A stretch of DNA of 64,000 nt from Arenimonas composti TR7-09 = DSM 18010 (GTDB lineage Bacteria; Pseudomonadota; Gammaproteobacteria; Xanthomonadales; Xanthomonadaceae): contig NZ_AUFF01000001.1 of the NCBI RefSeq assembly GCF_000426365.1, positions 682,001 to 746,000 of the forward strand, read 5' to 3'. Under the pieces are notes generated by a model, which had not been told where the DNA came from, ran no database searches, and saw only the letters and a list, made by a program, of their open reading frames with translations. The position numbers and the translations under genes were made by a program. Every line of letters begins with the position of its first letter. The first letter of the stretch is position 1. Below, piece by piece: positions 22,066 to 52,012 of this stretch.

Positions 22066-22273
22066 GCGTCACCTCCCCTGGTGTGCCCCATGCTGCGTGC
22101 CCGCGGGGACGGCGAAAAGCCGATCCGGGGACGCGCGAACGTAGGAAAACAGAGTAGCCGCGGGTCCTCGCTCCCACTCGCCGCACGCGTGGAAATGGCC
22201 GTATCCGCCTGCTGTTCCTAACCACGTCAGCGCTGCTGAGGAAATGCGCCGCTGCGGCGCCGGAGGCACGCCG

Positions 22274-23287
22274 ATGGCGGCAAGATTCCGGGCCCAGCCC
22301 CCGGAGCCCGCCGTGGCCGACGCCGACATCCGCAGCCTCTCCGCGACGCCATCGGCGACCTGGCGTGCGCTCGTGCGGGCGCTGGCGCTGCCGGTTCTGC
22401 TGGCGATCGCGGTGTGGCTGCCGATACACGCGGTGACGGCGCTCGACGGCGACCACCATGCGCTGGTCTGGATCGACGGCCCGCCCGACGTGCTCGCGCA
22501 GGCGGCGGAACACGCCGCGAGCGACCGCCACTTCAGCGGTGGCCCCGCCACCCACGGCGCCGATACCCTGCCGGCCGGCTGCACCGACACCGCGATCGCC
22601 CTGCACTTCGAGGCCCGCCGCGACGACCTGTCGCAGGCCACCCTGCGCGCGCTCGAGGAACTGGCGGTGGCCTCCGGCGCGCAGGTGTGCGCGAGCCAGC
22701 GCTTCGTGCTGAACGTGCCGGCGCGGCCGCAGCACGAGACCGAACGCTGGCTGTTCGGCGAACTCTGGCAGGTGCTCGTGCTACTGGTGCTGCCGGCGGG
22801 TCTCGTCGTGCTCGCCTACGCCGCGCCCTTCGGCGCCCCGGCGCTGGCGCGGCTGCGCGCGGAAATGCCCTCGCCCTGGCTGCAGCCGCTGTGGCTGGCG
22901 GGTGCCGGGGCAGTGCTGGTCGCGACCCTCGCCGCGTGGGCGAGCTCGGGCCTGATCCCGGTGCTCGAACGGCCGGCCGTCAGCGGCCTGTCGCCGGCGT
23001 TCGCGCTGGCCGAGCTGGCCCTGCTGCCGCTCCTGCAGCAACTGGTATTCCGTACCTGGCTGTTCGCGCAGCTGCGCCCGCACCTGTCGCCGGCGGCGGT
23101 CGCCGCGATCGCGATCGCTGCGCAGCTGCTCGCCGCGCAGCCCTTCGACCTCGAGAGCGCGCTGTTCGCGACCGGGCTGACGCTGGCCTGCACCGGACTC
23201 TACCTGCGCAGCCGCGAATGGCTGCCGCCGGTGCTGCTGCACGCGCTCGCCGTCGCCCTGCTCGACGCACGCCTGATCGCCGGCTGA
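22274..23287 (+). CDS. CPBP/Abi-like membrane protein with lost catalytic residues
   Basis: A 337-residue protein with one N-terminal membrane helix, a periplasmic domain of roughly 120 residues with two cysteines, then about six membrane helices. The last part has the outline of a CPBP (Abi) intramembrane protease, but the EExxxR motif is QQLVFR and HxxxN is HALAV, so two glutamates, the second histidine region and the asparagine are gone. It is probably not a protease. GGAGG seven bases ahead supports ATG 22274 over 22244. It is divergent from the response regulator. Confidence 0.65.
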   Translation: MAARFRAQPPEPAVADADIRSLSATPSATWRALVRALALPVLLAIAVWLPIHAVTALDGDHHALVWIDGPPDVLAQAAEHAASDRHFSGGPATHGADTLPAGCTDTAIALHFEARRDDLSQATLRALEELAVASGAQVCASQRFVLNVPARPQHETERWLFGELWQVLVLLVLPAGLVVLAYAAPFGAPALARLRAEMPSPWLQPLWLAGAGAVLVATLAAWASSGLIPVLERPAVSGLSPAFALAELALLPLLQQLVFRTWLFAQLRPHLSPAAVAAIAIAAQLLAAQPFDLESALFATGLTLACTGLYLRSREWLPPVLLHALAVALLDARLIAG

Positions 23288-23366
23288 CCGGGCCCGGGGC
23301 GCGGCTCCACCTCACGTCCACCTCGCGCCGCCCAGACTCCCGCCATTCCGCAGCGAGGCTGGGCCC

Positions 23367-24134
23367 ATGGACTTCACCGGCAAGGTGGTGATCGCGACCG
23401 GCGCTGCGTCCGGCATCGGCGAGGCGACCGCGCGGCTCTTCTCCCGCCACGGCGCCACGGTGGTGCTGGTCGACAAGGCCGGCGAGCGGCTGCAGCAGGT
23501 CGCGTCGTCGTTTCCGCCCGAGCGCACGCGCTGGCGCGTGCTCGACGTCGCCGACCGGCGCGCGGTCGAACGTCTGGTCGCCGACACCAGCCGCCGGCTC
23601 GGTGGCCTGGACGTGCTGTTCAACAACGCCGGCGAATACGCCGAGGGGGATGCCGAGGACGTCGGTTTCGACGAATGGGAGCGCCTGTTCGCGGTCGACG
23701 TGTCCGCGGTGCTCTACGCCTGCCGCGCCGCCCTGCCGCACCTGAAGAAGCGCCGCGGCAACATCGTCAACACCGCCTCGATGAGCGGCCTCGGCGGCGA
23801 CCGCGGCCAGGTCGCCTACTCCGCGGCCAAGGGCGCGCTGGTCAACCTGACCCGCTGCCTGGCGATCGACCACGCCCGCGACGGCGTCCGCGTCAATGCG
23901 GTCTGTCCATCCTTCACCCGCACCCGCATGACCACGAAGGACGAGCGTAACCCGAGGATGGTGCGCGCCTTCCTCGACCGCATGCCGATGGGCCGGCTCG
24001 GCGAAGCCGAGGACGTCGCGAAGGTCGTGCTGTTCCTCGCCAGCGACTGGGCCGGCTTCGTGACCGGGGTGAACCTGCCGGTCGACGGCGGCCTGAGCGC
24101 CTCGAACGGCCACCCGCTGTTCGAACTGCCATGA
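23367..24134 (+). CDS. SDR family oxidoreductase
   Basis: A 255-residue classical short-chain dehydrogenase. The nucleotide motif TGAASGIGEA is at residues 11-20, NNAG near 90, the catalytic serine in NTASMSG, and YSAAK gives the Tyr/Lys pair. The PVDGGLSASNGHP ending is normal for the family. Substrate unknown. Its stop overlaps the next start (ATGA), tying it to a cysteine hydrolase and then to the oxidase genes, so a link to quinone or respiratory metabolism is possible but unproven. Confidence 0.92.
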   Translation: MDFTGKVVIATGAASGIGEATARLFSRHGATVVLVDKAGERLQQVASSFPPERTRWRVLDVADRRAVERLVADTSRRLGGLDVLFNNAGEYAEGDAEDVGFDEWERLFAVDVSAVLYACRAALPHLKKRRGNIVNTASMSGLGGDRGQVAYSAAKGALVNLTRCLAIDHARDGVRVNAVCPSFTRTRMTTKDERNPRMVRAFLDRMPMGRLGEAEDVAKVVLFLASDWAGFVTGVNLPVDGGLSASNGHPLFELP

Positions 24135-24706
24135 CTGCGCCGCCGCGCAGCGCCCTGCTGCTGATCGACCTGATCAACCTGTTCGATTTCGAGGGTGGCA
24201 CCGCGCTGGCACGTGCGGCGGAGGCGACGCTGCCGGCGCTGCAGCGCCTGGTCCAGCGATTTCGCGCGGGCGGCGCGCCGGTGATCTACGCCAACGACAA
24301 TTTCGCGCACTGGCAGATGGACTTCCGCGAACTCGTCGCGACGTGCTGCCATCCGCAGGCGCGCGGCGCTGCGATCGCCACCGCGCTGGCGCCGATGCCC
24401 GGCGACTACTTCATCCTCAAGCCCAAGCACTCCGCGTTCCTGGCGACGCCACTGCCGGTGCTGCTGGCGAAGCTGGACGTGCGCCGTCTGGTGCTGGCCG
24501 GCGTCGCAGCCGATGCCTGCGTGCTCGCCACCGCCGTCGACGCCAATGCCCGCGAGTTCGAGGTCGTGGTGCCGCGCGACGCGGTCGCCTCGCGCACGCC
24601 GGCGCTGCGCGACACCGCGCTCGACCTGCTGCAGCGCTCGCGCGCGGCGAAGGTCACGACGGCCGCGCGCATCCGCCTTCCCGCCGGTAGCGGAGCGGGC
24701 AGCTGA
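24131..24706 (+). CDS. Isochorismatase-like cysteine hydrolase
   Basis: A 191-residue member of the isochorismatase/nicotinamidase superfamily. The triad is visible: D in LLLIDLINLF (residue 12), K in FILKPKHSAF and C in GVAADACVLAT. It overlaps the SDR gene by four bases and the oxidase subunit II start by one (TGATG), so it is part of that operon. The substrate, an amide or a vinyl ether, cannot be told from sequence. Confidence 0.9.
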   Translation: MTAPPRSALLLIDLINLFDFEGGTALARAAEATLPALQRLVQRFRAGGAPVIYANDNFAHWQMDFRELVATCCHPQARGAAIATALAPMPGDYFILKPKHSAFLATPLPVLLAKLDVRRLVLAGVAADACVLATAVDANAREFEVVVPRDAVASRTPALRDTALDLLQRSRAAKVTTAARIRLPAGSGAGS

Positions 24707-25401
24707 TGCGGCGGCGGCCGGCGGCCATCGCCTGCGGGGTCGCGGCCCTGTTCGCGGGCGCCTGTGCCGGCCCGCAGTCGAGCCTCGATCCCGCCGGTCC
24801 ATCGGCGGCGACGATCGCCGATCTCTGGTGGCTGATGGCGGTCGGCGCCATCGGCGTCTGGCTGCTGGTGATGGCCTTGCTGCTGATCGCACTGCGCCGC
24901 AGTGGCGACGAGGCGGCGGCGCGACCGAAGCTCTTCATCCTCGGCGGCGGCGTGGTGTTGCCGACGGTGGTGCTGGCGGCGCTGCTGGTGCACGGCGCGC
25001 TCGCTGCCGACCGCATCACCGGCCGTGGCAGCGAGGTCGCGCAGGTGATCGAGGTCGTCGCACGGCAGTGGCAATGGGAATTCCGCCATCTCGACACCGA
25101 CGGCCACGTGCGCGCCATCCGCGTCGACGAGCTGCACCTGCCCCGCGGCCGCCTGGTCGAATTCCGGGTGCGCAGCGAGGACGTGATCCACTCGTTCTGG
25201 ATCCCGCGCCTGGGCGGCAAGATCGACGCGATCCCCGGGGTCGTCAACACGATCCGCCTGCGCGCCGACGGCGACGGCGCGGTCCGCGGCCAGTGCGCCG
25301 AGTTCTGCGGCCGCGAGCACGCGACGATGGCCTTCCCGGTGCGCGTGCTCGCCGCCGACGAGTACGCGGCCTGGCTCGCCGCCGGCGGGGACGCCCGGTG
25401 A
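24706..25401 (+). CDS. coxB: Cytochrome c oxidase subunit II
   Basis: A 231-residue subunit II with a probable lipobox (ALFAGACAG, Cys near residue 20), two membrane helices and a cupredoxin domain. The binuclear CuA ligands are seen in VIHSFWIP and in GQCAEFCGREHATM (C197, C201, H205, M208). ARQWQWEF is the aromatic electron-entry patch. There is no fused cytochrome c domain. It receives electrons from cytochrome c for the fused subunit I-III encoded next, whose GTG start overlaps its stop (GTGA). Confidence 0.95.
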   Translation: MRRRPAAIACGVAALFAGACAGPQSSLDPAGPSAATIADLWWLMAVGAIGVWLLVMALLLIALRRSGDEAAARPKLFILGGGVVLPTVVLAALLVHGALAADRITGRGSEVAQVIEVVARQWQWEFRHLDTDGHVRAIRVDELHLPRGRLVEFRVRSEDVIHSFWIPRLGGKIDAIPGVVNTIRLRADGDGAVRGQCAEFCGREHATMAFPVRVLAADEYAAWLAAGGDAR

Positions 25402-27902
25402 ACGCCGCACCGCCCGCCGACGATCCGCGCCTGGCCGAGCTGCACCGGGTCTGGGCCAACGCCCCCGGCCTGCGCGGCCAGCTCACCGCGGTGAACCACT
25501 CGACGATCGCGATGCGCTACATCGTCACCGGCTTCGCCTTCCTGCTGGTCGGCGGCCTGCTGTCGATGTTCATCCGCCTGCAGCTGGCGTGGTTCGGCAA
25601 TGAGGTGCTGGATCCGGACCGCTACAACCAGTTCGTGACGATGCACGGCACCACGATGATGTTCCTGTTCGCGGTGCCGATCATGGAAGGCTTCGCGATG
25701 TACCTGCTGCCGAAGATGCTCGGCGCGCGCGACCTGCCCTACCCGCGCCTCTCGGCCTTCGGCTACTGGTGCTATTTGTTCGGCGGCCTGTTCCTGTACG
25801 CCAGTTTCCTGTTCGGCGGCGCCCCCGATGGCGGCTGGTTCATGTACGTGCCGCTGACCGATACCGCGTATTCGCCGGGCCCGGGCACCGACTTCTGGCT
25901 GCTCGGCGTCACCTTCGCCGAGATCGCCGCGGTGGCCGCAGCGGTCGAACTCATCGTCGCGGTGCTGATCACCCGTGCGCCGGGTATGGACATCGCGCGG
26001 CTGCCGCTGTTCGCCTGGGCGGTGCTGGTCACCGCCTTCATGATCGCCTTCGGCTTCCCGCCGCTGATCCTCGCCAGCGTGCTGCTGGAGCTGCAGCGGG
26101 CCTTCGACTTCGTGTTCTTCCGGCCGGAACTCGGCGGCGACCCCCTGCTGTGGCAGCACCTGTTCTGGCTGTTCGGCCATCCCGAGGTCTACATCATCTT
26201 CCTGCCGGCGGCGGGGGTGGTGTCGATGGTAGTGCCGGCCTTCGCGCGCCGGCCGGTGGTCGGCTACACCTGGATCGTGCTGGCGCTGATCTCGGTCGGC
26301 TTCCTGAGTTTCGGGCTGTGGGTGCACCACATGTTCACCGTCGGCATCCCGCTGCTGGCGCTGAGCTTCTTCAGCGCCGCCAGCATGATGGTCGCGGTAC
26401 CCACGGGCATCCAGGTCTTCGCATGGCTGGCGACGCTGTGGGCCGGCCGGCCGTGGCTGAAGCTGCCGCTGCTGTACATCACCGGTTTCTTCGGCGTGTT
26501 CGTGATCGGCGGCCTGACCGGGGTGATGCTCGCCTTCGTGCCGTTCGACTGGCAGGCGCACGACACCCATTTCGTCGTCGCGCACCTGCATTACGTGCTG
26601 ATCGGCGGGCTGATGTTCCCGCTGCTGGCCGGGCTGTACTACTGGCTGCCGCTGGTGAGCGGACGCCTGCCTTCGGAATCACTGGGGCGCACCGGCTTCT
26701 GGCTGCTGCTGATCGGCTTCAACCTGACCTTCCTGCCGATGCACTTCACCGGCCTGGCGGGCATGCCGCGGCGGGCCTACACGTATTCCGAAGCCCTCGG
26801 CGTGCACTGGCTCAACCTGCTGTCGACGGCGGCGGGTTTCGTGATGGCGGTGGCCTTCGTGGCGATCGCGCTCGATGTCGCGCTGGCCTTTCGCCATGGG
26901 CGCCGCACCGGGCGCGACCCCTGGAACGGCGGCACCCTGGAATGGGCGTTGCCGACGCCGGTGCCGATGTTCAACTTCGCCTCGATCCCGGACGTCGGGG
27001 ATCGTTATCCGCTGTGGCACCGGCCCGGACTCGCCGGGGAATCGATGCGGCCCGGCGGACTGCTCGGCGAAGTCCACGACGGCCGCCGCGAGATCCTCGG
27101 CAGCAGCCTTCTCGATGCCAGACCCGAGCAGGTGATCCGGGTTTCGGGGTCGAGCTGGCTGCCGCTGCTGGCGGCGCTGACGATCGCGGTGCTGCTGTCG
27201 GCCTTCATCGCGAAGGCCTACGTGCTTGCGGCGCTGGTCCTGTTGCCGCTGGTGGCGCTGTTCGTGGCCTGGGCCTGGACGACCGGCGACCGCACGGCGC
27301 CGGTGTCGCTGCGCGCCGGGCCGGGCCTCGAACTGCCGAGCCAGTACGCGGCGCGCAACGCGCCGGGCTGGTGGGCGCTGGTGATCGTGCTGCTGTTCGA
27401 CGGCGCGCTGTTCGCGGCGCTGGTCTTCGCCTATTTCTACCTGTGGCTGGGCAGCCCGGTGTGGCCGCCGGACGGCGCCGTCCCGGGCGCGACGATGCCC
27501 CTGCTCGCCGCCGGGCTGCTCGCGCTCGGTTGGCCGGTATCGGCCTGGGCGCAGCGGCGCCTCGACGAAGCGCGCAATCCCTCGATGCGGCATGCGTTGC
27601 TGGGCGCGACGGTCGCCGGCGTTGCCGCGACCGCGCTGCACCTGCTGACGCTGGCGACCTCGCTGCAGGCGCCACAGGTGCACGCCTATCCGGCCGTCGT
27701 CTGGACGCTCGCCGGCTTCAACGCGCTGCACGTCGCGATCGGCGCCCTGATGCTGCTGTTCGTGGTAGCACGTTCGTGGTCCGGCTACGTCGCCGCGACG
27801 CGTCCGCTGGAGTTGCGGGTCGCCGCCGGCTTCTGGCGCTACACGATCGTGCAGGGCCTGGTGATGCTGGCGGTGATCCATCTGTTCCCGAGGGCGCTGT
27901 GA
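25398..27902 (+). CDS. Cytochrome c oxidase subunits I and III fused
   Basis: An 834-residue fusion. Residues 1 to about 580 are subunit I: low-spin haem ligand H83 (TMHGTTMMF), CuB ligand H261 with the cross-linking Y265 (GHPEVY), H310 and H311 (VHHMF), and H396 and H398 (VAHLHYV). A linker with two membrane helices follows near residues 590-630. From about 650 (NAPGWWALVIVLLFDGALFAA) to the end is subunit III, with five or so helices and FWRYTIVQGLVMLAVIHLFP as last helix. GTG at 25398 overlaps the subunit II stop. Such fusions are known in caa3-type oxidases. Its end lies inside a 38-bp tandem duplication. Confidence 0.93.
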   Translation: MNAAPPADDPRLAELHRVWANAPGLRGQLTAVNHSTIAMRYIVTGFAFLLVGGLLSMFIRLQLAWFGNEVLDPDRYNQFVTMHGTTMMFLFAVPIMEGFAMYLLPKMLGARDLPYPRLSAFGYWCYLFGGLFLYASFLFGGAPDGGWFMYVPLTDTAYSPGPGTDFWLLGVTFAEIAAVAAAVELIVAVLITRAPGMDIARLPLFAWAVLVTAFMIAFGFPPLILASVLLELQRAFDFVFFRPELGGDPLLWQHLFWLFGHPEVYIIFLPAAGVVSMVVPAFARRPVVGYTWIVLALISVGFLSFGLWVHHMFTVGIPLLALSFFSAASMMVAVPTGIQVFAWLATLWAGRPWLKLPLLYITGFFGVFVIGGLTGVMLAFVPFDWQAHDTHFVVAHLHYVLIGGLMFPLLAGLYYWLPLVSGRLPSESLGRTGFWLLLIGFNLTFLPMHFTGLAGMPRRAYTYSEALGVHWLNLLSTAAGFVMAVAFVAIALDVALAFRHGRRTGRDPWNGGTLEWALPTPVPMFNFASIPDVGDRYPLWHRPGLAGESMRPGGLLGEVHDGRREILGSSLLDARPEQVIRVSGSSWLPLLAALTIAVLLSAFIAKAYVLAALVLLPLVALFVAWAWTTGDRTAPVSLRAGPGLELPSQYAARNAPGWWALVIVLLFDGALFAALVFAYFYLWLGSPVWPPDGAVPGATMPLLAAGLLALGWPVSAWAQRRLDEARNPSMRHALLGATVAGVAATALHLLTLATSLQAPQVHAYPAVVWTLAGFNALHVAIGALMLLFVVARSWSGYVAATRPLELRVAAGFWRYTIVQGLVMLAVIHLFPRAL

Positions 27903-27947
27903 TGCTGGCGGTGATCCATCTGTTCCCGAGGGCGCTGTGATGCTGGC
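27861..27947 (+). repeat. Exact 38-bp tandem duplication at the end of the fused oxidase gene
   Basis: The unit from 27861 to 27898 is repeated exactly at 27899-27936, and its first 11 bases occur again at 27937-27947. Copy one encodes the last residues and, at the junction, the TGA stop of the fused oxidase gene. Copy two is untranslated in that frame and separates the stop from the next start. Confidence 0.95.
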
Positions 27948-28344
27948 CGCGATCGGTCCGCGCCGGCTGCTCGGCATCGCCGCGCCGATGGCGCTGTGGG
28001 CGCTGCATTTCGTCACCGTCTATTCGCTGGCCGGGCTCGCCTGCGCGCGCGGCTGGGACCGGCGCGCCGCACTCGGGTTGCCACTGGTGTCGTGGTGGAT
28101 GCTGCTGGCGACGGTGCTCGCCCTGTTGTTGATCGCGCTGCTCGGTCTGCGCGCGCATCGCCGCTGGCGTCGGGCGATCGCGGCGGCACCGGCCGCCAGC
28201 TCCGTCGACGCGGACGCGGATGTCGCCCGCCGCCATCGCTTCAGCGCCGCCGCGACTGCTCTGGTGGCCTTGCTTGCCGCAGTCGCCGTGCTGTTCACAG
28301 CGGTGCCGGTGGCGCTGCTGCCGCTGTGCGCGGGGCCGGGCTGA
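27940..28344 (+). CDS. Small membrane protein in oxidase cluster, unknown function
   Basis: A 134-residue protein with three to four hydrophobic segments (LLGIAAPMALWALHFVTVYSLAG, WWMLLATVLALLLIALLGL, ATALVALLAAVAVLFTAVPVALL) and an arginine-rich middle. I do not recognise a family. ATG at 27940 or GTG at 27937 are both possible. Its stop overlaps the next start (TGATG). Its place between the oxidase and DUF2231-like genes suggests an accessory or assembly role for the oxidase. Confidence 0.7.
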   Translation: MLAAIGPRRLLGIAAPMALWALHFVTVYSLAGLACARGWDRRAALGLPLVSWWMLLATVLALLLIALLGLRAHRRWRRAIAAAPAASSVDADADVARRHRFSAAATALVALLAAVAVLFTAVPVALLPLCAGPG

Positions 28345-28877
28345 TGCGCCGCGAACTGCGCCAGCCACGCTCGGGCCAGACCGCGCACACGGTCGCCAGC
28401 AGGGTGGCCGTGTTCAAGCACCCGATCCACCCAATGCTGGTGGTGTTCCCGGTCGCCTTCCTGAGCACGCCGCTGCTGACCGATCTGCTCTTCCTGTGGC
28501 TGCAACAGCCGTACTGGGCGGTCACGTCCTACTGGCTGGTCGTCGGTGGTCTGGCGATGGGCCTGTTCGCGGCGTGTTTCGGCATCGCCGACATGTTCCT
28601 GCTGCGCAGCGTGCGCCGGCACGTGTCGGCGTGGAATCACTTCATCGCCGGGGTGATGCTGCTGGCGCTGGCGGCTGCCGGTGTCTGGTGGCGGCACGGC
28701 GATCCGCTCGCGGCGGTCTGGCCCTTCGGCCTGCTGCTGGCGGCGGTGACCGCGGGTATGACCTTCGTGACCGGCTGGCTGGGCGGCACGCTCAGCTTCC
28801 GTCACGGCGTCGGCGTCTACGGCGAGGGCGATCCGGCCGAGGACGCCGGCGACGATTCGGAGCCGGCCGGCGAATGA
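28344..28877 (+). CDS. DUF2231-like membrane protein
   Basis: A 177-residue protein with four membrane helices and the DUF2231 opening KHPIHPMLVVFPVAF. GIADMF and the WLGGTLSFRHGVGVY region near the end are also typical. Function is unknown; the family often lies next to haem-copper oxidase or cytochrome genes. The acidic tail (EGDPAEDAGDDSEPAGE) is encoded in a 61-bp stretch that overlaps, antisense, the end of the next gene. Confidence 0.85.
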   Translation: MRRELRQPRSGQTAHTVASRVAVFKHPIHPMLVVFPVAFLSTPLLTDLLFLWLQQPYWAVTSYWLVVGGLAMGLFAACFGIADMFLLRSVRRHVSAWNHFIAGVMLLALAAAGVWWRHGDPLAAVWPFGLLLAAVTAGMTFVTGWLGGTLSFRHGVGVYGEGDPAEDAGDDSEPAGE

Positions 28878-29341
28878 AGCGCGAACGCATCCTCCAGCAC
28901 CGGCTTCGCGCCCGTGAGCGCCGCGAGCGCGAGCAGCAGCACGAGCGGCGCCGCGCCGAGCAGGCGGTGCATCCACGCATGCCGGCGGCGGCCACCGTGG
29001 CCGAGCGCGTACAGGGTGAGGCCGAACTGCAGGTGCACCAGCACGGCCGCCGCGACCAGCACCAGCTTCAGCACCAGCCAGGCACCACCCGGCGGGCCGA
29101 GCGCGATCAGGGCGATCCCGGCGGCGATCGTCGCCACCGCCGCCGGCGTCATCAGCCGGAAGTAGAGCGTGTTCGCGGCGATGTTGAAGAAGGCCGCGTC
29201 GCTGTCGGCCTCGTCGCGGTCGCGGGCGATGAACAGCCGCGGCAGCAGGAACAGCCCGGCGAACCAGACCGTCATCGCGGCGATGTGGAAGCTGACCAGC
29301 CAGAAACCCACGGTGCTCTCCCGCAGCGTCGTCGCCGGCAT
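28817..29341 (-). CDS. CopD/HemJ-like membrane protein
   Basis: A 174-residue protein with four hydrophobic helices. FHIAAMTVWFAGLFLLPRLF near the start matches the HemJ/CopD pattern (histidine in the first helix, then AGLFxLPRLF), and RLMTPAAVATIAAGIALIA and LVLKLVLVAAAVLVHLQFG follow it. It may bind haem or be an assembly factor; true protoporphyrinogen oxidase activity is not shown. It is on the opposite strand within an otherwise plus-strand oxidase cluster. Its end overlaps the DUF2231 gene and its start is only 15 bp from the ctaG start. Confidence 0.75.
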   Translation of the reverse strand: MPATTLRESTVGFWLVSFHIAAMTVWFAGLFLLPRLFIARDRDEADSDAAFFNIAANTLYFRLMTPAAVATIAAGIALIALGPPGGAWLVLKLVLVAAAVLVHLQFGLTLYALGHGGRRRHAWMHRLLGAAPLVLLLALAALTGAKPVLEDAFALHSPAGSESSPASSAGSPSP

Positions 29342-29356
29342 GCTGCGCGGCCGGGC

Positions 29357-30268
29357 GTGCGCGCGGTGTCGTGGCCGGTGCTGCTGGCCGCCTTCGGCAG
29401 CGGCCACGAAGCCACGGCGCATTCGGCGGAGGGCCATGTGCATCCGCCGGCCGGGCTCGAGGATGCATGGTCGCTGTCTCCGTGGCTGCTCGTGCCGATG
29501 GCGGCCTTCGTGCTGCTGTGGCTGCTCGGACGCTGGCGCGGGCCGCGGCGGCCGTCGGGCGCCGGGACGAGGCTCGGCGGTGACCTCGCCTTCGCGGCCG
29601 CGGTCGCGACCTTGTTCGCGGCGACCCTCTGGCCGCTCGACGCCTACGGCGAATGGTCGCTTGCCGCGCACATGGGCCAGCACATGCTGCTGCTGGCGCT
29701 GGCGCCGCCGCTGCTGCTGGCGGCGCGGCCGCTGGCGACGGTCGCGCAGGCGCTGCCGGCGCATGTTGCGCAGCGCCTCACCGCTACCCTCGGACGCCCG
29801 CTCGAGGCCGCGGCCCGCGCGCTGCCGGCGGCGACGGCGGCCCATCTCGGCGTGATGCTGGTCTGGCATGCGCCGCTCGCGTTGCGCGCCGCCCTGGCCA
29901 GCGATCCGGTGCACTGGGCGATGCATGCCAGCTTCCTGCTCGCCGGCCTGTGGTTCTGGGCCGCCGTCGCGCACATCGTGCGCGCCCGTGGCAGCGGCCT
30001 CGCCGGCGCGCTCGCGGCACTGGTCACGGTGATGATGGTGATGGGACTGATGGGTGGCGTGTTCGTGTTCGCCAACCGGGTGCTGTACCCGGTCTACGTT
30101 GACCGGGCGCCTCAGCTCGGCCTCGATCCGCTGTGGGACCAGGCGCTGGCGGGGCTGATCATGTGGGTGCCGGCGTGCCTGCCGTACCTCGTCGGGGCGC
30201 TGTGGCTGGCGGCACTCGGCATCCGGCGCACCGGCCGCCGTCGCCCGCGCCGAATCGTCCTGCCTTGA
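29357..30268 (+). CDS. ctaG: Cytochrome c oxidase assembly factor, CtaG-like
   Basis: A protein of about 303 residues: N-terminal hydrophobic stretch, then a histidine-containing periplasmic part (GHEATAHSAEGHVHPP), then about seven membrane helices. The caa3-CtaG motifs are visible: SLAAHMGQHMLLLALAPPLLLAARP and VHWAMHASFLLAGLWFWAA in part, then MGGVFVFANRVLYPVY. The family helps insert copper into alternative oxidases. No ATG precedes the domain, so GTG 29357 (or 29366) is assumed. It is the last oxidase-linked gene of this cluster. Confidence 0.85.
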   Translation: MRAVSWPVLLAAFGSGHEATAHSAEGHVHPPAGLEDAWSLSPWLLVPMAAFVLLWLLGRWRGPRRPSGAGTRLGGDLAFAAAVATLFAATLWPLDAYGEWSLAAHMGQHMLLLALAPPLLLAARPLATVAQALPAHVAQRLTATLGRPLEAAARALPAATAAHLGVMLVWHAPLALRAALASDPVHWAMHASFLLAGLWFWAAVAHIVRARGSGLAGALAALVTVMMVMGLMGGVFVFANRVLYPVYVDRAPQLGLDPLWDQALAGLIMWVPACLPYLVGALWLAALGIRRTGRRRPRRIVLP

Positions 30269-30284
30269 CCAGACACCGGTGGGA

Positions 30285-31481
30285 TCAGGACGCGTCTGGA
30301 GCCGGAAGGACCGGTTCCAGCATTTCCTGTTCGAGCAGCATCGGCTGTCGCCGGAGTGAGGTGCTGACCTCTTCCCACCCGGCGCGGGCTGCCCAGCGGC
30401 AGAGCCGTTCCAGCTCCGCCGGATTCGGCGTGGCGGCGTCCGAACGGACGGCGGGCGGCAGCTGGTCCGGAGACATCAGCCACGGGCGCAGCCCGTACCC
30501 GGCCTCGGCGGCGGTCGCCGCCAGCGTCGCCGCGATGCGGAAGCCGCCCTCGTCGATGTCGCCCCAGTGGAAGACGCGGGCCGTCGGATCGATCCCTGCG
30601 AGTACCCGCCTGTAGGCGGCACGCCATGCCGGCGACGGCATGCCGCCGGTGTAAAGCAGCAGCACATTTCCCGCATCGGCGGACTGCGCGGCGTCGTGGA
30701 AGCTCGCCAGATTCTCGATGCTGAGCACGCAGCGCACCCCGGTCGCGAGTCCGCGCAGCTGCTCCACCGGAAGGCCGATGAAGGGCCTAACCAGGGGCAG
30801 GGCCATCCCCGCCACGTCGGCCTCGCCCGTGCCGGCGACGAGGAAGGGCTGTGGCTCGCGCCTGAGCCCGAGCATCGCCCACACCTCGACATCCGGCAGC
30901 GGCCCCGCAGCGAGTTCGCCGGTCGCGATCAGCTCGAGCCAGCGGGTCAGCTTCTCCAGGCGCTTGCTGTCGCCGAACAGGCGGGTACTTTCGCGCCGCA
31001 ACACCCGTTCGTAGGCGTGGTCTTCCCGGCGCGCGGCCACCGCCTTCGCTGCATCGCGCAGATCCGCCGCGGCCTCGGGTCCAGCGCCGCGGACCTTGCC
31101 GCCGTCACGCCAGCGCGAGAGCACCTCCTCCACTACCGGAAACCGATCCCGCCAGTCCACGAGCAGGGCTTGCGCCGCGGCGATCCGGTCTTCCAGCAGT
31201 TCGACGCCGACGGCGGCGGCCAGCGCCGCCGCATCGACCACCATCAGGCGCACCAGCCGCGAGCCGTCTCCGGCATTCACGTCACGCTCGGCACGCAAGG
31301 CACCCATGCGCTCGGCGAGCGCGATCCGGGCGTGGAAGTGTTCGAGCGCGGCGAGCGTCCGCAGGCCGGTGTATTCCTCGACCTTGGCCATGTTCATCGA
31401 CACCGGCCGCGGATCGCCACGCCGCCGTGCGCTCTCGGCGCGGCGAAGCAGGCGGCGGAGCACGGCGTCGACGCCGCTCAC
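30285..31481 (-). CDS. jetD: Wadjet protein JetD (TOPRIM-fold nuclease subunit)
   Basis: A 398-residue protein with an N-terminal helical DUF3322-like part and a C-terminal DUF2220/TOPRIM part. The metal-binding glutamate is E256 (LSIENLASF) and the DxD pair is D308/D310 (HWGDIDEGG). In studied Wadjet systems JetD cuts small circular DNA after the JetABC SMC complex has extruded it. GTG at 31481 overlaps the jetC stop (GTGA), so it is coupled to jetC. All key TOPRIM residues are present, so it should be active. It ends 16 bp from the convergent ctaG gene. Confidence 0.92.
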   Translation of the reverse strand: MSGVDAVLRRLLRRAESARRRGDPRPVSMNMAKVEEYTGLRTLAALEHFHARIALAERMGALRAERDVNAGDGSRLVRLMVVDAAALAAAVGVELLEDRIAAAQALLVDWRDRFPVVEEVLSRWRDGGKVRGAGPEAAADLRDAAKAVAARREDHAYERVLRRESTRLFGDSKRLEKLTRWLELIATGELAAGPLPDVEVWAMLGLRREPQPFLVAGTGEADVAGMALPLVRPFIGLPVEQLRGLATGVRCVLSIENLASFHDAAQSADAGNVLLLYTGGMPSPAWRAAYRRVLAGIDPTARVFHWGDIDEGGFRIAATLAATAAEAGYGLRPWLMSPDQLPPAVRSDAATPNPAELERLCRWAARAGWEEVSTSLRRQPMLLEQEMLEPVLPAPDAS

Positions 31482-34400
31482 ACCTGCGCCTCTCCCGCCG
31501 TGATGCGCGCGACCTCCGCCTCCAGCAACTCCGGATGCAGGTCGAACTGGTCGGACAGCAGCAGCGCCCGCGCCGCCGCGCCGACCTCGATGTGCTCGAC
31601 CTGCAGCAGGTCGCCGTCGCGGAACAGCTCGATGTAGCTGTCGAGAACGCCGGACAGCGTGCCCTGGGCGGTATCGGGCGCGGCCAGCAGCAGCTGCAGG
31701 CCGAGCGAGCGCAGGTAGTCGACGGTGGCACGGGCGTTCTGGGCGTCGATCTTGTCGCCGAACTCGTCGAGCAGGATCAGGCCGAGGCCGCCGCCGTTGG
31801 CCGCGGTCTTGCCGTAGGCCGCGGCGAGCGCGGCGCCGGCGATCACGTACAGCGGCGCACGATGCTCGCCACCGGAGCCGGAGCGCATGCGTTCGGACAG
31901 CGAGCCGATCACGCGATCGTCCTGGCGGATCTGCACCTCGAAATGGAAGAAGCGGCGGTAGTCGTCGAGCGCCGACACCGCGCCATGTTTCGCGGCGTCG
32001 TCCTCGATCAGTTCGCGGAAGGCGGCCGGGACCTCGCCGGCACTGCCGAACAGGCCGTCCTCGCCGTCGATCTCGGCGACGCGCCTGATGAAGCGGTAGA
32101 GCTCGGCGTATTCCGACGCGACCTCGAAGTGGAACTGGTAGCGCTCGTTGTTCGAGAACGCCGGGCTCGCCCGCAGCGTGCGGTTGAGCGTGGCGATCTG
32201 GTGCTTCAGGCGGCTGAAGTTGTCGAACAGCGCCGAGGCGACGCTGCTGCGGAAGGTTTCGGTCGCGGTCGCGTAGGCCTCGTCGGCCTCGCGCTGGTAG
32301 TTGGCCAGCTCGGACTCGCGCAGCTGCGCCAGCTCCTTCGCCAGCAGGCGGCGCGCCGCGCGCCAGTCGCCGGGGGCGAGATCGAGCTCGAGCACGTGAT
32401 CCCTGGCGTATTGCGCCAGCGCGCCCCAGGCCTGCGGCTTGAGGTTGTCGAGCTGGCGGTCGCTGTCCTTCGCACGCTCCTCGCAGCGCTCGGCGCGTTC
32501 CTTCAGCGTCGGCCACTTCGCATCCAGTTCCTCGCGCACGCGCTCGACCAGGTTGGGGTCGACGTCGGGATCGCGGAAGGCGTCCACCGCGTCGCGGGTG
32601 ACCCGTTCCTCCTGCTCGCGCAGGCCGGCCAGCAGTCGCTGCGCGTCGGCTTCCGCGCGTTCGTCCATCGCCACCTTGCCGATCAGCGCATCGCGGCGGG
32701 AGTCGCAGGTGGCCAGCTGTCCGGCGAGTTCGCGGACCTGCTCCGACGCGCGCAGCAGATCCGGGTCCTGCGCCGCCGCGCGGCTGTCGATCGCGTCCTG
32801 CCAGCGCCGCTGTACCTGGCGGTGGTCGACGATCCGGTCGTGCAGGTCCTGCGCGAGCTTCCCCGGTTCGGCGAGCAGGGCCAGGCCGCGGCGGCAGTTC
32901 TCGAGCTCGCGCAGTGCGGGTTCGAGGCGACGCAGCTCGTTCTCGGCAGCGGCGGCTTCCTCGTGCAGCACGCGCAGACGGGCACGGTTGTCGCTGGCGC
33001 CGATCTTCAGTTCGCTCGCCGCCGGCAGGCGCAGGCGCTCGATGCCGCCACCGCGGGCGAGCAGGCCGTCGCGGGTCAGGCCCTGGCGGCTGGCGATCAG
33101 CTCGGCCTCGGTGTCGACGCAGCGCAGCTCGCCGAGGCTGCGGCGCAGGAAGCCCAGCGCGTCGGCGTTCTCACCCTCGAGCAGGGCCGCGGCCGTGCCC
33201 GGCCGCGCCTCATCCGGTCCGCGGCGCGCCGCGCTCGCCAGCGCCAGCTTCACCCCATAGACGCTGCGGGCGCCGCCGAGCGAACGGTAGAGGCGCACCG
33301 CGCGCTCCTCGTCGGCCGGCGCGATCAGCAGGGCTTCGACATTGCTGCGCAGATAGGCCTCGATCGCGCCCTGCCAGGCGGCGTCGCGGACGCGCACGAG
33401 GTCGCAGACCGGCGTCGCCGCGATGCCCTCGTCGGCGAGGTAGGACGCCAGCCGCATCACGTCCGGATGCAGCTCCGCCTTGCCGGCGGCGATGCGCTTC
33501 TGGTTTTGCTGGGCGGCGGCGCGGCGGCGCTTCGCGTCCTCCACCTGGGTGTGCAGCGCACGCGCCTGCGCCTCGACCGCGGCGAGCAGCGGCTGCACCG
33601 CCGCGAGTTCGCGCTGCGCCTCGTCGAAGAGCGCGGCCGCTGGCCACGGCAGCGGCGCCTCGGCCGGCAGCGCCGCCAGCGTCTCGTGCCAGTGCTGCCA
33701 GGGCGCCATCGCCTGCGCGACGGCCGCCGCATCGATCGACGGCAGACCGAGTTTCGCCACCGCCGCGAGCTGTTCGCGCACCAGGCCGATGCCGCGCGTG
33801 AGCTCCCGGCGCAGACGCGCCAGTTCGCCGCGGTCGCGGCCGGCGAGTTCATCGATCTGCGCCTGCTCCCCGTAGCCGGCACTGCCCTGCAGTCGCGCCA
33901 GTGCCTGCGCATGCGCCTCGGCGAGCATCGTCCGTTCGCTGCTCGCTTCGACCAGCGCGCGGCGCGTCTCGCCGAGGCGGCGGCTCGCGGCCGCGCTTTC
34001 GTTCTCGGCCTGCTCGACCTGCTCCGACAGCAGGTCCCGCTGGTATTCCGCCGCCAGCGCCCGGCAACTGGCCGCACGCGCCGCCTGCTGGGCGATCTTG
34101 CCGTATTGCCCGTCGACGTCTTCGGCGGCGGCGATGCGCGCGACGACCTGCTCGATGCGCTCCTTCAGGCTGCGGAAGGTCTGCAGCAGGCCACGGAAAC
34201 GCGCGATGTCGGTCGGCCGGTCCTCGGCGACCAGGGTGCGCACGAACAGGTCGACATCCTCGACCCGCTGCAGGTTCAGCGCGTTCTGGAAAGCCTTGCG
34301 GTAGGCCGCGACATCCGGCTGGCCCGCCGGCGCGGCGCGCAGGCGCAGCAGCAGGTCCTTGAGGAAGCGTTCGCTGCCGGCATGCAGTTCCGGACCGCTG

Positions 34401-34909
34401 CCGCTGCCGGCCTCGCGGCAGCGCTGGGTCAGCAGCTCGCGGAAACCCGCCCAGGCCAGCGGCAGTTCGCGGCCGCCGGCGCGCTCGAGATGATCGTCGA
34501 GCGTCAGCGCGACGCCGGGCACGAGGTACATGCCGTAGACGCGGTGCTCCGGCTCGTCGACGCTGGCGCCGAGGGCGATGCCGGCAGTGAGCGCCTCGCC
34601 GGTCTCCTGGTCGCGGAAGACCAGGCTGATGTAGGTGGTCGCGGTGCGCCGCTTGCGGCCCTCGTCGCCGCTGCGCCAGACGCCGAGGCAGTAGTCGCGG
34701 ATCGAGCGCGCGCGGACGCTGCCGCCGGCCTGGGCATTGAAGCGGATGCGCGTGCGGTCGGCGCCGAGCAGCACGATCTGCAGCGCGTCGAGCAGCGCGC
34801 TCTTGCCGGCGCCGTTGGGGGCGATGACCGCGCTGGTCGGCGACAGCTCGAGGGTCTGTGCCTCGAACAGGAAGAACTGGACCAGGTGGACCCGCTCAAG
34901 CAGCTGCAT
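31478..34909 (-). CDS. jetC: Wadjet protein JetC (SMC-like ATPase)
   Basis: A 1143-residue SMC/MukB-like ATPase. Walker A (PNGAGKS) is at residues 31-37, followed by a long coiled coil of more than 600 residues in two arms around a hinge near residues 480-560. The C-terminal head holds the ABC signature (SGSGGEH, near residue 1010) and Walker B (LGLILLDEFGDKID, near 1049). It is the motor of the JetABC loop-extrusion complex that recognises closed circular plasmids. Its start lies 14 bp inside the end of jetB. Confidence 0.93.
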   Translation of the reverse strand: MQLLERVHLVQFFLFEAQTLELSPTSAVIAPNGAGKSALLDALQIVLLGADRTRIRFNAQAGGSVRARSIRDYCLGVWRSGDEGRKRRTATTYISLVFRDQETGEALTAGIALGASVDEPEHRVYGMYLVPGVALTLDDHLERAGGRELPLAWAGFRELLTQRCREAGSGSGPELHAGSERFLKDLLLRLRAAPAGQPDVAAYRKAFQNALNLQRVEDVDLFVRTLVAEDRPTDIARFRGLLQTFRSLKERIEQVVARIAAAEDVDGQYGKIAQQAARAASCRALAAEYQRDLLSEQVEQAENESAAASRRLGETRRALVEASSERTMLAEAHAQALARLQGSAGYGEQAQIDELAGRDRGELARLRRELTRGIGLVREQLAAVAKLGLPSIDAAAVAQAMAPWQHWHETLAALPAEAPLPWPAAALFDEAQRELAAVQPLLAAVEAQARALHTQVEDAKRRRAAAQQNQKRIAAGKAELHPDVMRLASYLADEGIAATPVCDLVRVRDAAWQGAIEAYLRSNVEALLIAPADEERAVRLYRSLGGARSVYGVKLALASAARRGPDEARPGTAAALLEGENADALGFLRRSLGELRCVDTEAELIASRQGLTRDGLLARGGGIERLRLPAASELKIGASDNRARLRVLHEEAAAAENELRRLEPALRELENCRRGLALLAEPGKLAQDLHDRIVDHRQVQRRWQDAIDSRAAAQDPDLLRASEQVRELAGQLATCDSRRDALIGKVAMDERAEADAQRLLAGLREQEERVTRDAVDAFRDPDVDPNLVERVREELDAKWPTLKERAERCEERAKDSDRQLDNLKPQAWGALAQYARDHVLELDLAPGDWRAARRLLAKELAQLRESELANYQREADEAYATATETFRSSVASALFDNFSRLKHQIATLNRTLRASPAFSNNERYQFHFEVASEYAELYRFIRRVAEIDGEDGLFGSAGEVPAAFRELIEDDAAKHGAVSALDDYRRFFHFEVQIRQDDRVIGSLSERMRSGSGGEHRAPLYVIAGAALAAAYGKTAANGGGLGLILLDEFGDKIDAQNARATVDYLRSLGLQLLLAAPDTAQGTLSGVLDSYIELFRDGDLLQVEHIEVGAAARALLLSDQFDLHPELLEAEVARITAGEAQV

Positions 34910-35525
34910 CGTCGTCCTCCGTGACGGCTTCTTCGGCGACGTCGTCGCGGTTGTGCTGGTCCAGGCGCTGCAGCCAGGTCTCGCCGACGATGTCGACGAT
35001 CGCCGGGCGTACGCGCAGGTGGAAGGGCTGCGGGTCGTCCGCATCGGATTCGACCAGGCGGGCGACGCCCCAGCGCCGCGCGGTGCGCGCCAGCGTGCGC
35101 AGCGTGCCGACCTCGGGCATCGGCCGGCCGACCAGCCGCCGGTAGGCCTCCTGCAGTTCCGGCAGTTCGACCACGACTTCGCCGAACTCCTCGATGTCGC
35201 CGCGGCGCGCCGCCTCGTCGTAGCGTTGGCGCAGCACCAGCAGCAGCAGGGTCTCGTCGAGCGTCACCGGCACGCCCTCGGCACGCGCCGGCAGCGCGAC
35301 CACGTAGCGGTAATGCGCATTGCGCTCCAGGCGGACGCCGAGCGGCGCCAGCACCGCGGCGAATTCGGCGAAGTAGGCTTCGACCAGGTGATAGGCCGAA
35401 CGGCTGCCGCGGTCACTGGCATAGAGCACCTGTTCGGTGACCAGGCGATAGGCGGCGCGCTCGAAATCGGCCGGTGCGTACAGGCCATTCGAGTGTTGCG
35501 AAAGGACGTTCCAGCTGCGGCTCAT
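34896..35525 (-). CDS. jetB: Wadjet protein JetB (MukE/MksE-like, DUF4194)
   Basis: A 209-residue tandem winged-helix protein of the MksE/DUF4194 kind, with FERAAYRLVTEQVLYASD, VEAYFAEFAAVLAPLGVRLERNAHYRYVVAL in part, then LDETLLLLVLRQRYDEA. It would bind the JetA kleisin in the SMC complex. It overlaps jetA upstream by four bases (ATGA) and jetC downstream by 14. The end is acidic (EEAVTEDDDAAA). Confidence 0.88.
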   Translation of the reverse strand: MSRSWNVLSQHSNGLYAPADFERAAYRLVTEQVLYASDRGSRSAYHLVEAYFAEFAAVLAPLGVRLERNAHYRYVVALPARAEGVPVTLDETLLLLVLRQRYDEAARRGDIEEFGEVVVELPELQEAYRRLVGRPMPEVGTLRTLARTARRWGVARLVESDADDPQPFHLRVRPAIVDIVGETWLQRLDQHNRDDVAEEAVTEDDDAAA

Positions 35526-36955
35526 GCGGACTTCCGGAGGCGGTGGATGACGAAGCGCGGGGCGCGCAGCCAGCCGTTGTCGGCGCGCTCGCCGGCATCG
35601 GTGAGTTCGACGCGGAAGCCGCGCGCGAGACGGCTCAGCGGATCGTCGCGACGCAGGCCGCCGATGCGCCGGCTGCGCAGCGCCAGGGTCAGCAGGGTCT
35701 GGTAGGCGCGCAGGTCGGCGATGCCGGTGATCGACAGCGCGATCGAATCGACCTGCCCTTCCGCCGGCAAATGGCGGCCGACGTAGCGCGCCATGTCCTC
35801 GGCGGTGACCAGGCGGGCGCGGTTGATCCGCCGCAGCAGCGCCAGACGCGCCTGTTGCTCCGGCGTCGGGCGCACCACCGCGTTGGCGCTGCGCTCGATC
35901 GCGCCGGGGCGGCGGCGCGCCGGTCGCAGCTGTTCCTCGTCCATCAGCGGGCCGGGCGCCACCTGCACGCGCAGCGCGTCCTCCGGTGCGGCCAGCGCGC
36001 CGCGGACGGCACGCGCGATCAGCACGTCCAGGCGTGCCGGCGCGCGCAGGCGGTAGTCGAGGAAGGCCAGCGCGCGCCGGTTGGCGTGGCGGATGTCCTC
36101 GTCGAGGCGGGCCAGGTACTCGTCGATGCGGTCGAGCTCGTGCAGGCGGCGCAGGCTGCGCGCCATGCGCGACTCGGCGCGGGTGGCGTCGCCGCCGGTG
36201 GCGTGTTCGCGGTACCAGGCCAGCAGCCCGGTGCGGCGTTCGCCCTCGTCCAGCGAACGCGCCATCGCCAGGATCGCGCTGCGGCGGGCGAGCGGATGGT
36301 CGACCTTGTGCAGGTCGGCGTAGTCGCCGATGAAGAAGCCGGCGATGTAGCGCTCGAACCAGATCCGGGCGAACTGCGCGGTGCTGTCGGCGCGGGCGAT
36401 CTCCGGCAGCAGGTCGCGCACGCGCAGGCTCATCGAACTCAGCGAGACCAGCAGGCGGCGGGCCTGGTCGGCGGCTTCGTCGAGGGCGTCGCCGGCGGCC
36501 TTGCCGTCGACGACCTGCTGCAGCTGAAGCTCGATCGAGCGCACCTTCGCCGACACATAGGTCGGTCCGTGTTCGGCGAACTCGACGAGCGTGGCGAGGA
36601 ACTGCGCGACCAGCGGCGGCATCGTCACCATCTCGCGGGCGCCGAAACGTTCCTGGCGCAACCAGCCGGAGGCACGGAAGCGCTCGTAGATGGCGTTCGC
36701 GCGCACCGGCAGCGGGGTATCGGGCGCCTGCCCGTCCTCGTCTTCCCAGGGATCGTCGCCGAGCAGCCAGCGCTCGATCGCGGCGGTGATTTCGCGCCGC
36801 GGCAGACCGACCGGTGGCGCCAGCGGCGCGTCGGGACCGAAGAACTCGTCGTAGAGCCGGCACAGCAGCGCCCAGTGATGGCGGCGGTTCGGCGAGGCGA
36901 GCGGGCCGAAGATGCCGCCGGGGAGCACTTCGAACAGCGGGGCGGGTTCCTGCAT
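35522..36955 (-). CDS. jetA: Wadjet protein JetA (kleisin, MukF/MksF-like)
   Basis: A 477-residue, mostly helical protein opening with LFEVLPGGIFGPLASPNRRHH in part, a form found in JetA proteins of the DUF5716 sort, and unlike the DUF3375 JetA of the type I systems as I recall them. It would be the kleisin that bridges the JetC heads and recruits JetB. It is first in the operon and ATG 36955 is 48 bp beyond the CCA end of tRNA-Ser, with no clear promoter of its own, so read-through from the tRNA is possible. Confidence 0.85.
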   Translation of the reverse strand: MQEPAPLFEVLPGGIFGPLASPNRRHHWALLCRLYDEFFGPDAPLAPPVGLPRREITAAIERWLLGDDPWEDEDGQAPDTPLPVRANAIYERFRASGWLRQERFGAREMVTMPPLVAQFLATLVEFAEHGPTYVSAKVRSIELQLQQVVDGKAAGDALDEAADQARRLLVSLSSMSLRVRDLLPEIARADSTAQFARIWFERYIAGFFIGDYADLHKVDHPLARRSAILAMARSLDEGERRTGLLAWYREHATGGDATRAESRMARSLRRLHELDRIDEYLARLDEDIRHANRRALAFLDYRLRAPARLDVLIARAVRGALAAPEDALRVQVAPGPLMDEEQLRPARRRPGAIERSANAVVRPTPEQQARLALLRRINRARLVTAEDMARYVGRHLPAEGQVDSIALSITGIADLRAYQTLLTLALRSRRIGGLRRDDPLSRLARGFRVELTDAGERADNGWLRAPRFVIHRLRKSA

Positions 36956-37002
36956 GGCGTGTCCGGATCGACGTTGGTGCCTGCCGAGGCGGAGGCCAGG
37001 GG

Positions 37003-37092
37003 TGGCGGAGAGAGTGGGATTCGAACCCACGGAAGGGGTTAGCCTTCGGCGGTTTTCAAGACCGCTGCCTTAAACCACTCGGCCATCTCTCC
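37003..37092 (-). tRNA. tRNA-Ser (anticodon UGA)
   Basis: A 90-nt type II tRNA with a GGAGAGA/TCTCTCC acceptor stem, a long variable arm, the T-loop GTTCGAATC and the anticodon loop CTTGAAA giving UGA. The CCA end is encoded (TGG at 37003-37005 on the plus strand). It is downstream of serS and the LysR gene on the same strand, and its 3' end faces the jet operon. Confidence 0.96.
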
Positions 37093-37100
37093 GGATTGGT

Positions 37101-37187
37101 ATCGCGCCTGAAGGCGCTCCTACGGTGAAGCATCGCGCCTGAAGGCGCTCCTACGGGGTGGGGCATCGCGCCTGAAGGCGCTCCTAC
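37101..37187. repeat. Three direct copies of a 23-bp REP-type palindrome
   Basis: The unit ATCGCGCCTGAAGGCGCTCCTAC occurs at 37101-37123, 37132-37154 and 37165-37187, all in the same orientation. Each holds the small palindrome GCGCCTGAAGGCGC. They fill the gap between the LysR stop and tRNA-Ser. Confidence 0.92.
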
Positions 37188-37196
37188 AGGGGTGGG

Positions 37197-40751
<3,555 letters not shown>

Positions 40752-43380: not shown

Positions 43381-43443
43381 GTAGGAGCGGCTTCAGCCGC
43401 GATGCTTTACGCACAAAAGCATCGCGGCTGAAGTCGCTCCTAC
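43381..43443. repeat. Inverted REP pair forming a long hairpin
   Basis: GTAGGAGCGGCTTCAGCCGC begins the left arm and its inverse ends the right arm at 43443. The arms (43381-43408 and 43416-43443) pair over 28 bp with one mismatch around a short loop. It sits between convergent genes and supplies the stop codon of rarA (TAG at 43440-43442 on the minus strand). It could act as a terminator for both. Confidence 0.92.
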
Positions 43444-49600: not shown

Positions 49601-49692
49601 GTAGGAGCGCCTTCAGGCGCGATCCCGATCCGCCTTCAGGCGCGACCCCGTCCCTCACCTTCAAGCGGAATCGCGCCTGAAGGCGCTCCTAC
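49601..49692. repeat. REP cluster: two inverted units and a partial central copy
   Basis: GTAGGAGCGCCTTCAGGCGC starts the left unit (49601-49623) and the exact inverse unit is at 49670-49692. A partial copy CGCCTTCAGGCGCGA is at 49631-49645. The arms can pair over 23 bp. It fills the gap between trxB and the next gene, whose start lies 10 bp beyond it. Confidence 0.93.
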
Positions 49693-51887: not shown

Positions 51888-52012
51888 GTAGGAGCGGCTT
51901 CAGCCGCGATGCCCTGCCCGCAGCATCCGCGTAGGTACCAGGCATGAAAAAGGCGACCCTCGGGTCGCCTTTTTCGTATCGCGGCTGAAGCCGCTCCTAC
52001 AGGCGCTCCTAC
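51888..52012. repeat. Inverted REP units flanking the infA terminator
   Basis: GTAGGAGCGGCTTCAGCCGC starts the left unit (51888-51910), and its exact inverse is at 51978-52000, followed by a partial AGGCGCTCCTAC at 52001-52012. The infA terminator hairpin lies between the arms, so the arms and terminator could form nested hairpins. Confidence 0.92.
51946..51975 (+). terminator. Rho-independent terminator after infA
   Basis: A 13-bp stem (51946-51958 with 51963-51975), loop CTCG, ending in CTTTTT. The A-rich side makes it work also for the convergent clpA. Confidence 0.9.

Follow-up and report, generated by a model that had tools for sequence, protein, structure and literature searches.

In the 64,000-nucleotide stretch of DNA from Arenimonas composti TR7-09 = DSM 18010 that was analyzed (contig NZ_AUFF01000001.1, positions 682,001 to 746,000; here called the window), four adjacent genes are located on the minus strand in the order jetA, jetB, jetC, and jetD, and judging from their sequences it is very likely that they constitute a complete, probably functional Wadjet system of type I. 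Type I Wadjet has been characterized in Escherichia coli GF4-3 and Pseudomonas aeruginosa PA14, and the window operon shares with these systems the same four subunits, the SMC motifs, and a predicted JetD fold with its acidic residues. The structural genes are:

35522..36955, minus strand: jetA, kleisin subunit, 477 amino acids, ATG start at 36955
34896..35525, minus strand: jetB, MukE-like (KITE) subunit, 209 amino acids, ATG start at 35525
31478..34909, minus strand: jetC, SMC ATPase, 1143 amino acids, ATG start at 34909
30285..31481, minus strand: jetD, nuclease with a putative N-terminal CAP-like part and a C-terminal TOPRIM domain, 398 amino acids, GTG start at 31481

Re-reading of the sequence showed that the coordinates, strand, and gene order of this operon in a first-pass annotation are exact to the base, as are the overlaps of 4 bases between jetA and jetB, 14 bases between jetB and jetC, and 4 bases between jetC and jetD. 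The GC content is 72.4% for the operon versus 70.4% for the window, and at the third codon position of the four jet genes it reaches 85-92%, close to the values of neighboring genes.

Assignment of the four subunits by profile searches

PADLOC was searched by hmmscan with each of the four proteins, and the matches obtained span nearly the whole protein length. The best models were JetA1 for JetA (PDLC00456, 753.2 bits, E 2.6e-227), JetB1 for JetB (PDLC00498, 321 bits, E 7.9e-97), JetC1 for JetC (PDLC00513, 1600.5 bits, E 0), and JetD1 for JetD (PDLC00529, 516.2 bits, E 1.4e-155). As all E-values are 7.9e-97 or lower, chance is excluded, and since for all four proteins the top model belongs to type '1', the Wadjet class is, by these profiles, type I. 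Among the PADLOC matches listed (for JetC, the best 25 of 30 families), the highest scores of type II or III models were 33.6 bits (JetC2) and 23.5 bits (JetD3), and no type II or III model was listed for JetA or JetB. In Pfam, JetA matched the JetA family PF18982 (162.8 bits versus a cut-off of 26.2), JetB matched DUF4194 (PF13835, 84.7 bits), JetC matched SbcC_Walker_B and AAA_29, and JetD matched JetD_C (PF09983, 49.4 bits), all above cut-off, and in NCBIfam none of the four proteins matched above a curated cut-off. The subunit assignments made in the first-pass annotation are thus upheld for every protein by both PADLOC and Pfam profiles and for JetD also by its predicted fold; the contrary outcome, in which no Jet model is matched, did not occur.

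Gene order and overlaps recur in related loci

Relatives were collected as 69 loci by scanning genome contigs with the patterns HWGDIDE and GGMPSP[AV]W. A full set of four subunits was recognized in 60 of them, always in the order A-B-C-D, and seven of these 60 have at least one short frame, due to a contig end or a possible break; nine of the 69 loci are without one or more detectable subunits. The gene starts of the relatives were deduced from tblastn, and hence some exceptions in the following overlap counts are artefacts: among the loci with a JetD identity of at least 48% (n = 28), the A/B overlap is 4 bases in 24/27, the B/C overlap 14 bases in 27/27, and the C/D overlap 4 bases in 23/28. 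Direct reading of a Pseudofulvimonas locus (L014) gave a C/D overlap of 4, and a locus just outside this close set (L083, JetD identity 47.7%) has gaps of -4, -14, and -8. The gene order and the overlaps recur in relatives, which are mostly Lysobacterales, and given the recurring overlaps the proposal that the four subunits are translationally coupled is a fair inference. In one related locus, that of Cardiobacterium hominis (L104, 4991-8968), the frames at the best matches to jetB (130 amino acids) and jetC (250 amino acids) are short, and the operon may be broken there.

In a JetC tree of 62 rows, the window sequence is located inside a set of 29 rows, nearly all from Lysobacterales (support 100), and two Rhodanobacter rows are nearest to it by path. 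Arenimonas caeni falls into a group of 25 rows (support 99) that contains neither the window nor those Rhodanobacter rows; a further four rows of Arenimonas group apart from these in a clade of their own. The tree was calculated by a quick method without bootstrap and does not settle the fork at the window, and according to a warning of the program long branches meet in it, including those between the window's group and a six-row group that holds the four Arenimonas rows. Because Arenimonas rows occur in different JetC groups, there are at least three jet lineages in the genus, which points to repeated horizontal gain. Compared with the Rhodanobacter sp. DHB23 locus (L064), identities are 76% for JetA, 79% for JetB, 74% for JetC, and 62% for JetD. 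Like other Lysobacterales, DHB23 has the same B/C and C/D overlaps as the window, whereas its jetA and jetB are separated by a gap of 10 bases instead of overlapping and no tRNA gene is present in its 19.2 kb.

Motifs of JetC and putative catalytic residues of JetD

The first-pass annotation had described the Walker A, signature, and Walker B motifs of JetC as intact, and all three were located: APNGAGKS, with GAGKS from residue 33, SGGE from residue 1012, and LLDEF from residue 1046. Among the related loci, 61 have a JetC frame of 1100 amino acids or more; in these, simple patterns detected Walker A in 58/61, SGGE in 59/61, and LDE in 56/61, and the eight loci without one or more of these patterns all have a JetD of less than 38% identity.

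In JetD, the previously numbered residues E256, D308, and D310 were found at these positions. After exclusion of 10 of the 69 loci as partial or distant, all 60 aligned sequences have E256, D308, D310, E384, and E386, and 51/60 have E311; as the loci were found by patterns, the conservation of D308 and D310 is partly built in, and E256, E384, and E386 lie outside both patterns. E384 and E386 belong to a C-terminal EQE. For MksG of Corynebacterium glutamicum, the E236A and D279A mutants are reported to be drastically impaired, and its residues E349 and E351 correspond to glutamates proposed as nucleophiles of JetD (PMC10123090). The acidic residues of MksG, which bind metal, may be paired with those of the window JetD by position, a pairing of our own; Y258 of MksG reportedly has no conserved counterpart in JetD (PMC10123090).

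According to a review, JetD is contacted in one system by an IFDR motif located N-terminally in JetB (PMC10586767). This motif is no criterion for the family, and it was looked for and not found at the N-terminus of the window JetB. Near the N-terminus of JetA, two other Arenimonas loci (L015 and L017) have LFDR and the window JetA has LFEV at the same place.

The predicted structure of JetD has a predicted local distance difference test score (pLDDT) of 94.9. A Foldseek search with this model returned ten PDB chains at E <=0.001, all of them MksG, JetD, topoisomerase VI-A, or Spo11, and the best matches were C. glutamicum MksG (8b7f), with 18% identity over the match, followed by JetD (7til). 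The putative N-terminal CAP-like part is aligned from residue 2 solely by 8b7f and 7til, with a root-mean-square deviation (rmsd) of 9, and according to the program residues before 160 are barely tested.

The operon is located in a variable interval adjoining tRNA-Ser

JetA was detected in 27 of 198 genomes of the family and in just 6 of 27 genomes of the genus, and the operon is therefore accessory; the window genome contains one JetD. The operon forms one end of an interval between a response regulator gene and a tRNA gene:

22066..37002, no strand: variable interval from response regulator to tRNA-Ser, 14.9 kb, with a CAAX-protease-like gene, SDR, isochorismatase, an oxidase cluster, and jetABCD
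37003..37092, minus strand: tRNA-Ser (TGA), identified with ARAGORN and Rfam, anchor of the variable interval

According to Pfam, the order within the interval is CAAX-protease-like, SDR, isochorismatase, COX2, COX1, DUF2231, and CtaG, followed by jetDCBA. The oxidase block (22274-30268), which adjoins jetABCD, encodes COX2, DUF2231, and CtaG as well as a protein of 834 amino acids whose first 482 residues contain COX1, and among the 19 genus genomes searched for CtaG the window genome alone has it.

A serS match was obtained in 25 other genomes of the genus, and 16 of these serS neighborhoods were compared, some of them truncated by contig ends. The order response regulator, interval, tRNA-Ser(TGA), LysR, and serS is kept in 12/16, and in these 12 the interval measures 1.2-5.1 kb versus 14.9 kb in the window. 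The tRNA-Ser is reversed in three of the 16 (L058, L062, and L063, more distant genus members) and was not found in one, and no match to jet genes was obtained in any of the 16. In the other five JetA-bearing genomes of the genus, jet is not beside serS: four have the two on separate contigs, and in the fifth (G041) both are on contig C12, about 118 kb apart. The host has probably gained the operon horizontally into the variable interval beside tRNA-Ser.

Site-specific integration at tRNA-Ser is unsupported, as there is no tRNA-fragment scar in the window (no stretch of the tRNA-Ser gene of 12 bases or longer recurs in it) and no integrase among ten neighboring proteins searched with Pfam, the rest of the window not having been scanned for one. 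In the whole genome, this tRNA-Ser is the sole full-length identical copy, and three weaker matches are probably other tRNA genes.

The cargo of the interval also varies in Arenimonas L052, L053, L054, L055, and L057, where sugar-nucleotide and glycosyltransferase genes, a TauE-like permease, and a carbonic-anhydrase-like gene were recognized by eye, without profile search. Further, nine exact matches to GTAGGAGCGNCTTNAGNCGCGA occur in the window at 37102-37187, 43381-43443, 49601-49692, and 51888-52000, three of them as consecutive copies a short way upstream of tRNA-Ser and the others as three inverted pairs further on; none occurred in 100 shuffles, and they look like a small family of interspersed palindromic repeats.

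Expected activity and alternative explanations

Type I Wadjet is described as a DNA-extruding dimer of SMC motors in which JetD is activated when a circle has been fully extruded; small circular DNA is reported to be cut, and linear DNA is not (PMC10586767, PMC12647877). By analogy with characterized type I systems, the window operon would be expressed and its JetABC would assemble into an SMC motor dimer able to extrude DNA. On small circular DNA, extrusion would run to completion and the motors would meet, which would release an autoinhibited JetD TOPRIM dimer for cutting. The result would be loss of small plasmids, with linear DNA and the chromosome left intact. A native Wadjet of Clostridium cellulovorans is reported to limit plasmid transfer (PMC12287153). 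Activity of the window operon, as expected in the first-pass annotation, is plausible from its intact frames and motifs.

Several observations weigh against a functional type I system. No promoter- or terminator-like site was found in 36800-37300 on either strand, by a scan that is insensitive in DNA of 70% GC. Compared over the whole chain, the JetD model reaches a TM-score of just 0.30 with both 8b7f and 7til_B (rmsd 11.4 and 13.6), and the placing of the two JetD domains is therefore not matched. With JetD and JetC, phmmer found no PDB chain at E 0.001; a 5-sequence JetD profile found nothing in PDB, and a 60-sequence JetD profile reached no JetD there, topoisomerase VI-A being its one match at a non-significant E of 0.66. 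The 5-sequence profiles of JetA and JetB gave only unrelated weak matches and no Jet chain. The corresponding JetC profile reached three JetC sequences solely within a stretch of about 60 residues that surrounds the P-loop (8as8 being the best, with E 4e-4), and its first-ranked match, ahead of these, was an OLD-family endonuclease. By these searches the window proteins are far in sequence from the solved type I systems, and they differ from them in being too distant for the solved JetA, JetB, and JetD chains to be reached.

The start of jetA is 47 bases past the 3' end of the tRNA-Ser, on the same strand, and read-through transcription of jetA from this tRNA gene is possible. A tRNA gene beside jetA is not a general feature, as tRNA genes occur in 5/69 related loci and adjoin jetA in none of them. 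It appears rather unlikely that jetABCD is promoterless and read through from tRNA-Ser(UGA) and that the Lysobacterales clade, so remote in sequence from solved systems, holds and releases JetD differently; if true, an accessory defense system would be bound by read-through to a core tRNA unit.

A Wadjet that is silent or in decay, with genes intact in sequence that are unexpressed or whose products are unable to assemble, would agree with the missing promoter-like site, and Wadjet I is already known in Xanthomonadaceae from Stenotrophomonas maltophilia, for which the commonest variant is reported to be without jetD and is judged probably inactive (PMC11680222). In contrast to that variant, the window copy has jetD, its four frames are uninterrupted, motifs are present, overlaps match those of relatives, and third-position GC is near that of neighboring genes, and we consider silence or decay improbable. 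That the operon encodes an Mks-type condensin with an associated nuclease for chromosome organization and not for plasmid defense is very improbable, for although Wadjet and MksBEFG are one superfamily and MksG is the top Foldseek match of JetD, MksBEFG of C. glutamicum has itself been described as a system for defense against plasmids (PMC10123090) and the patchy occurrence of JetA is unlike that of a housekeeping condensin.

Significance

No literature linking Arenimonas to Wadjet was found. The window operon is an ordinary type I Wadjet and leaves knowledge of Wadjet unchanged; what it contributes is a complete representative of a Lysobacterales clade within type I Wadjet, a clade with no close solved relative in the searches run, and the location of this copy in a variable interval adjoining tRNA-Ser. 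If the operon is active, it would lower the host's acceptance of small plasmids, and its deletion could ease the genetics of this host.
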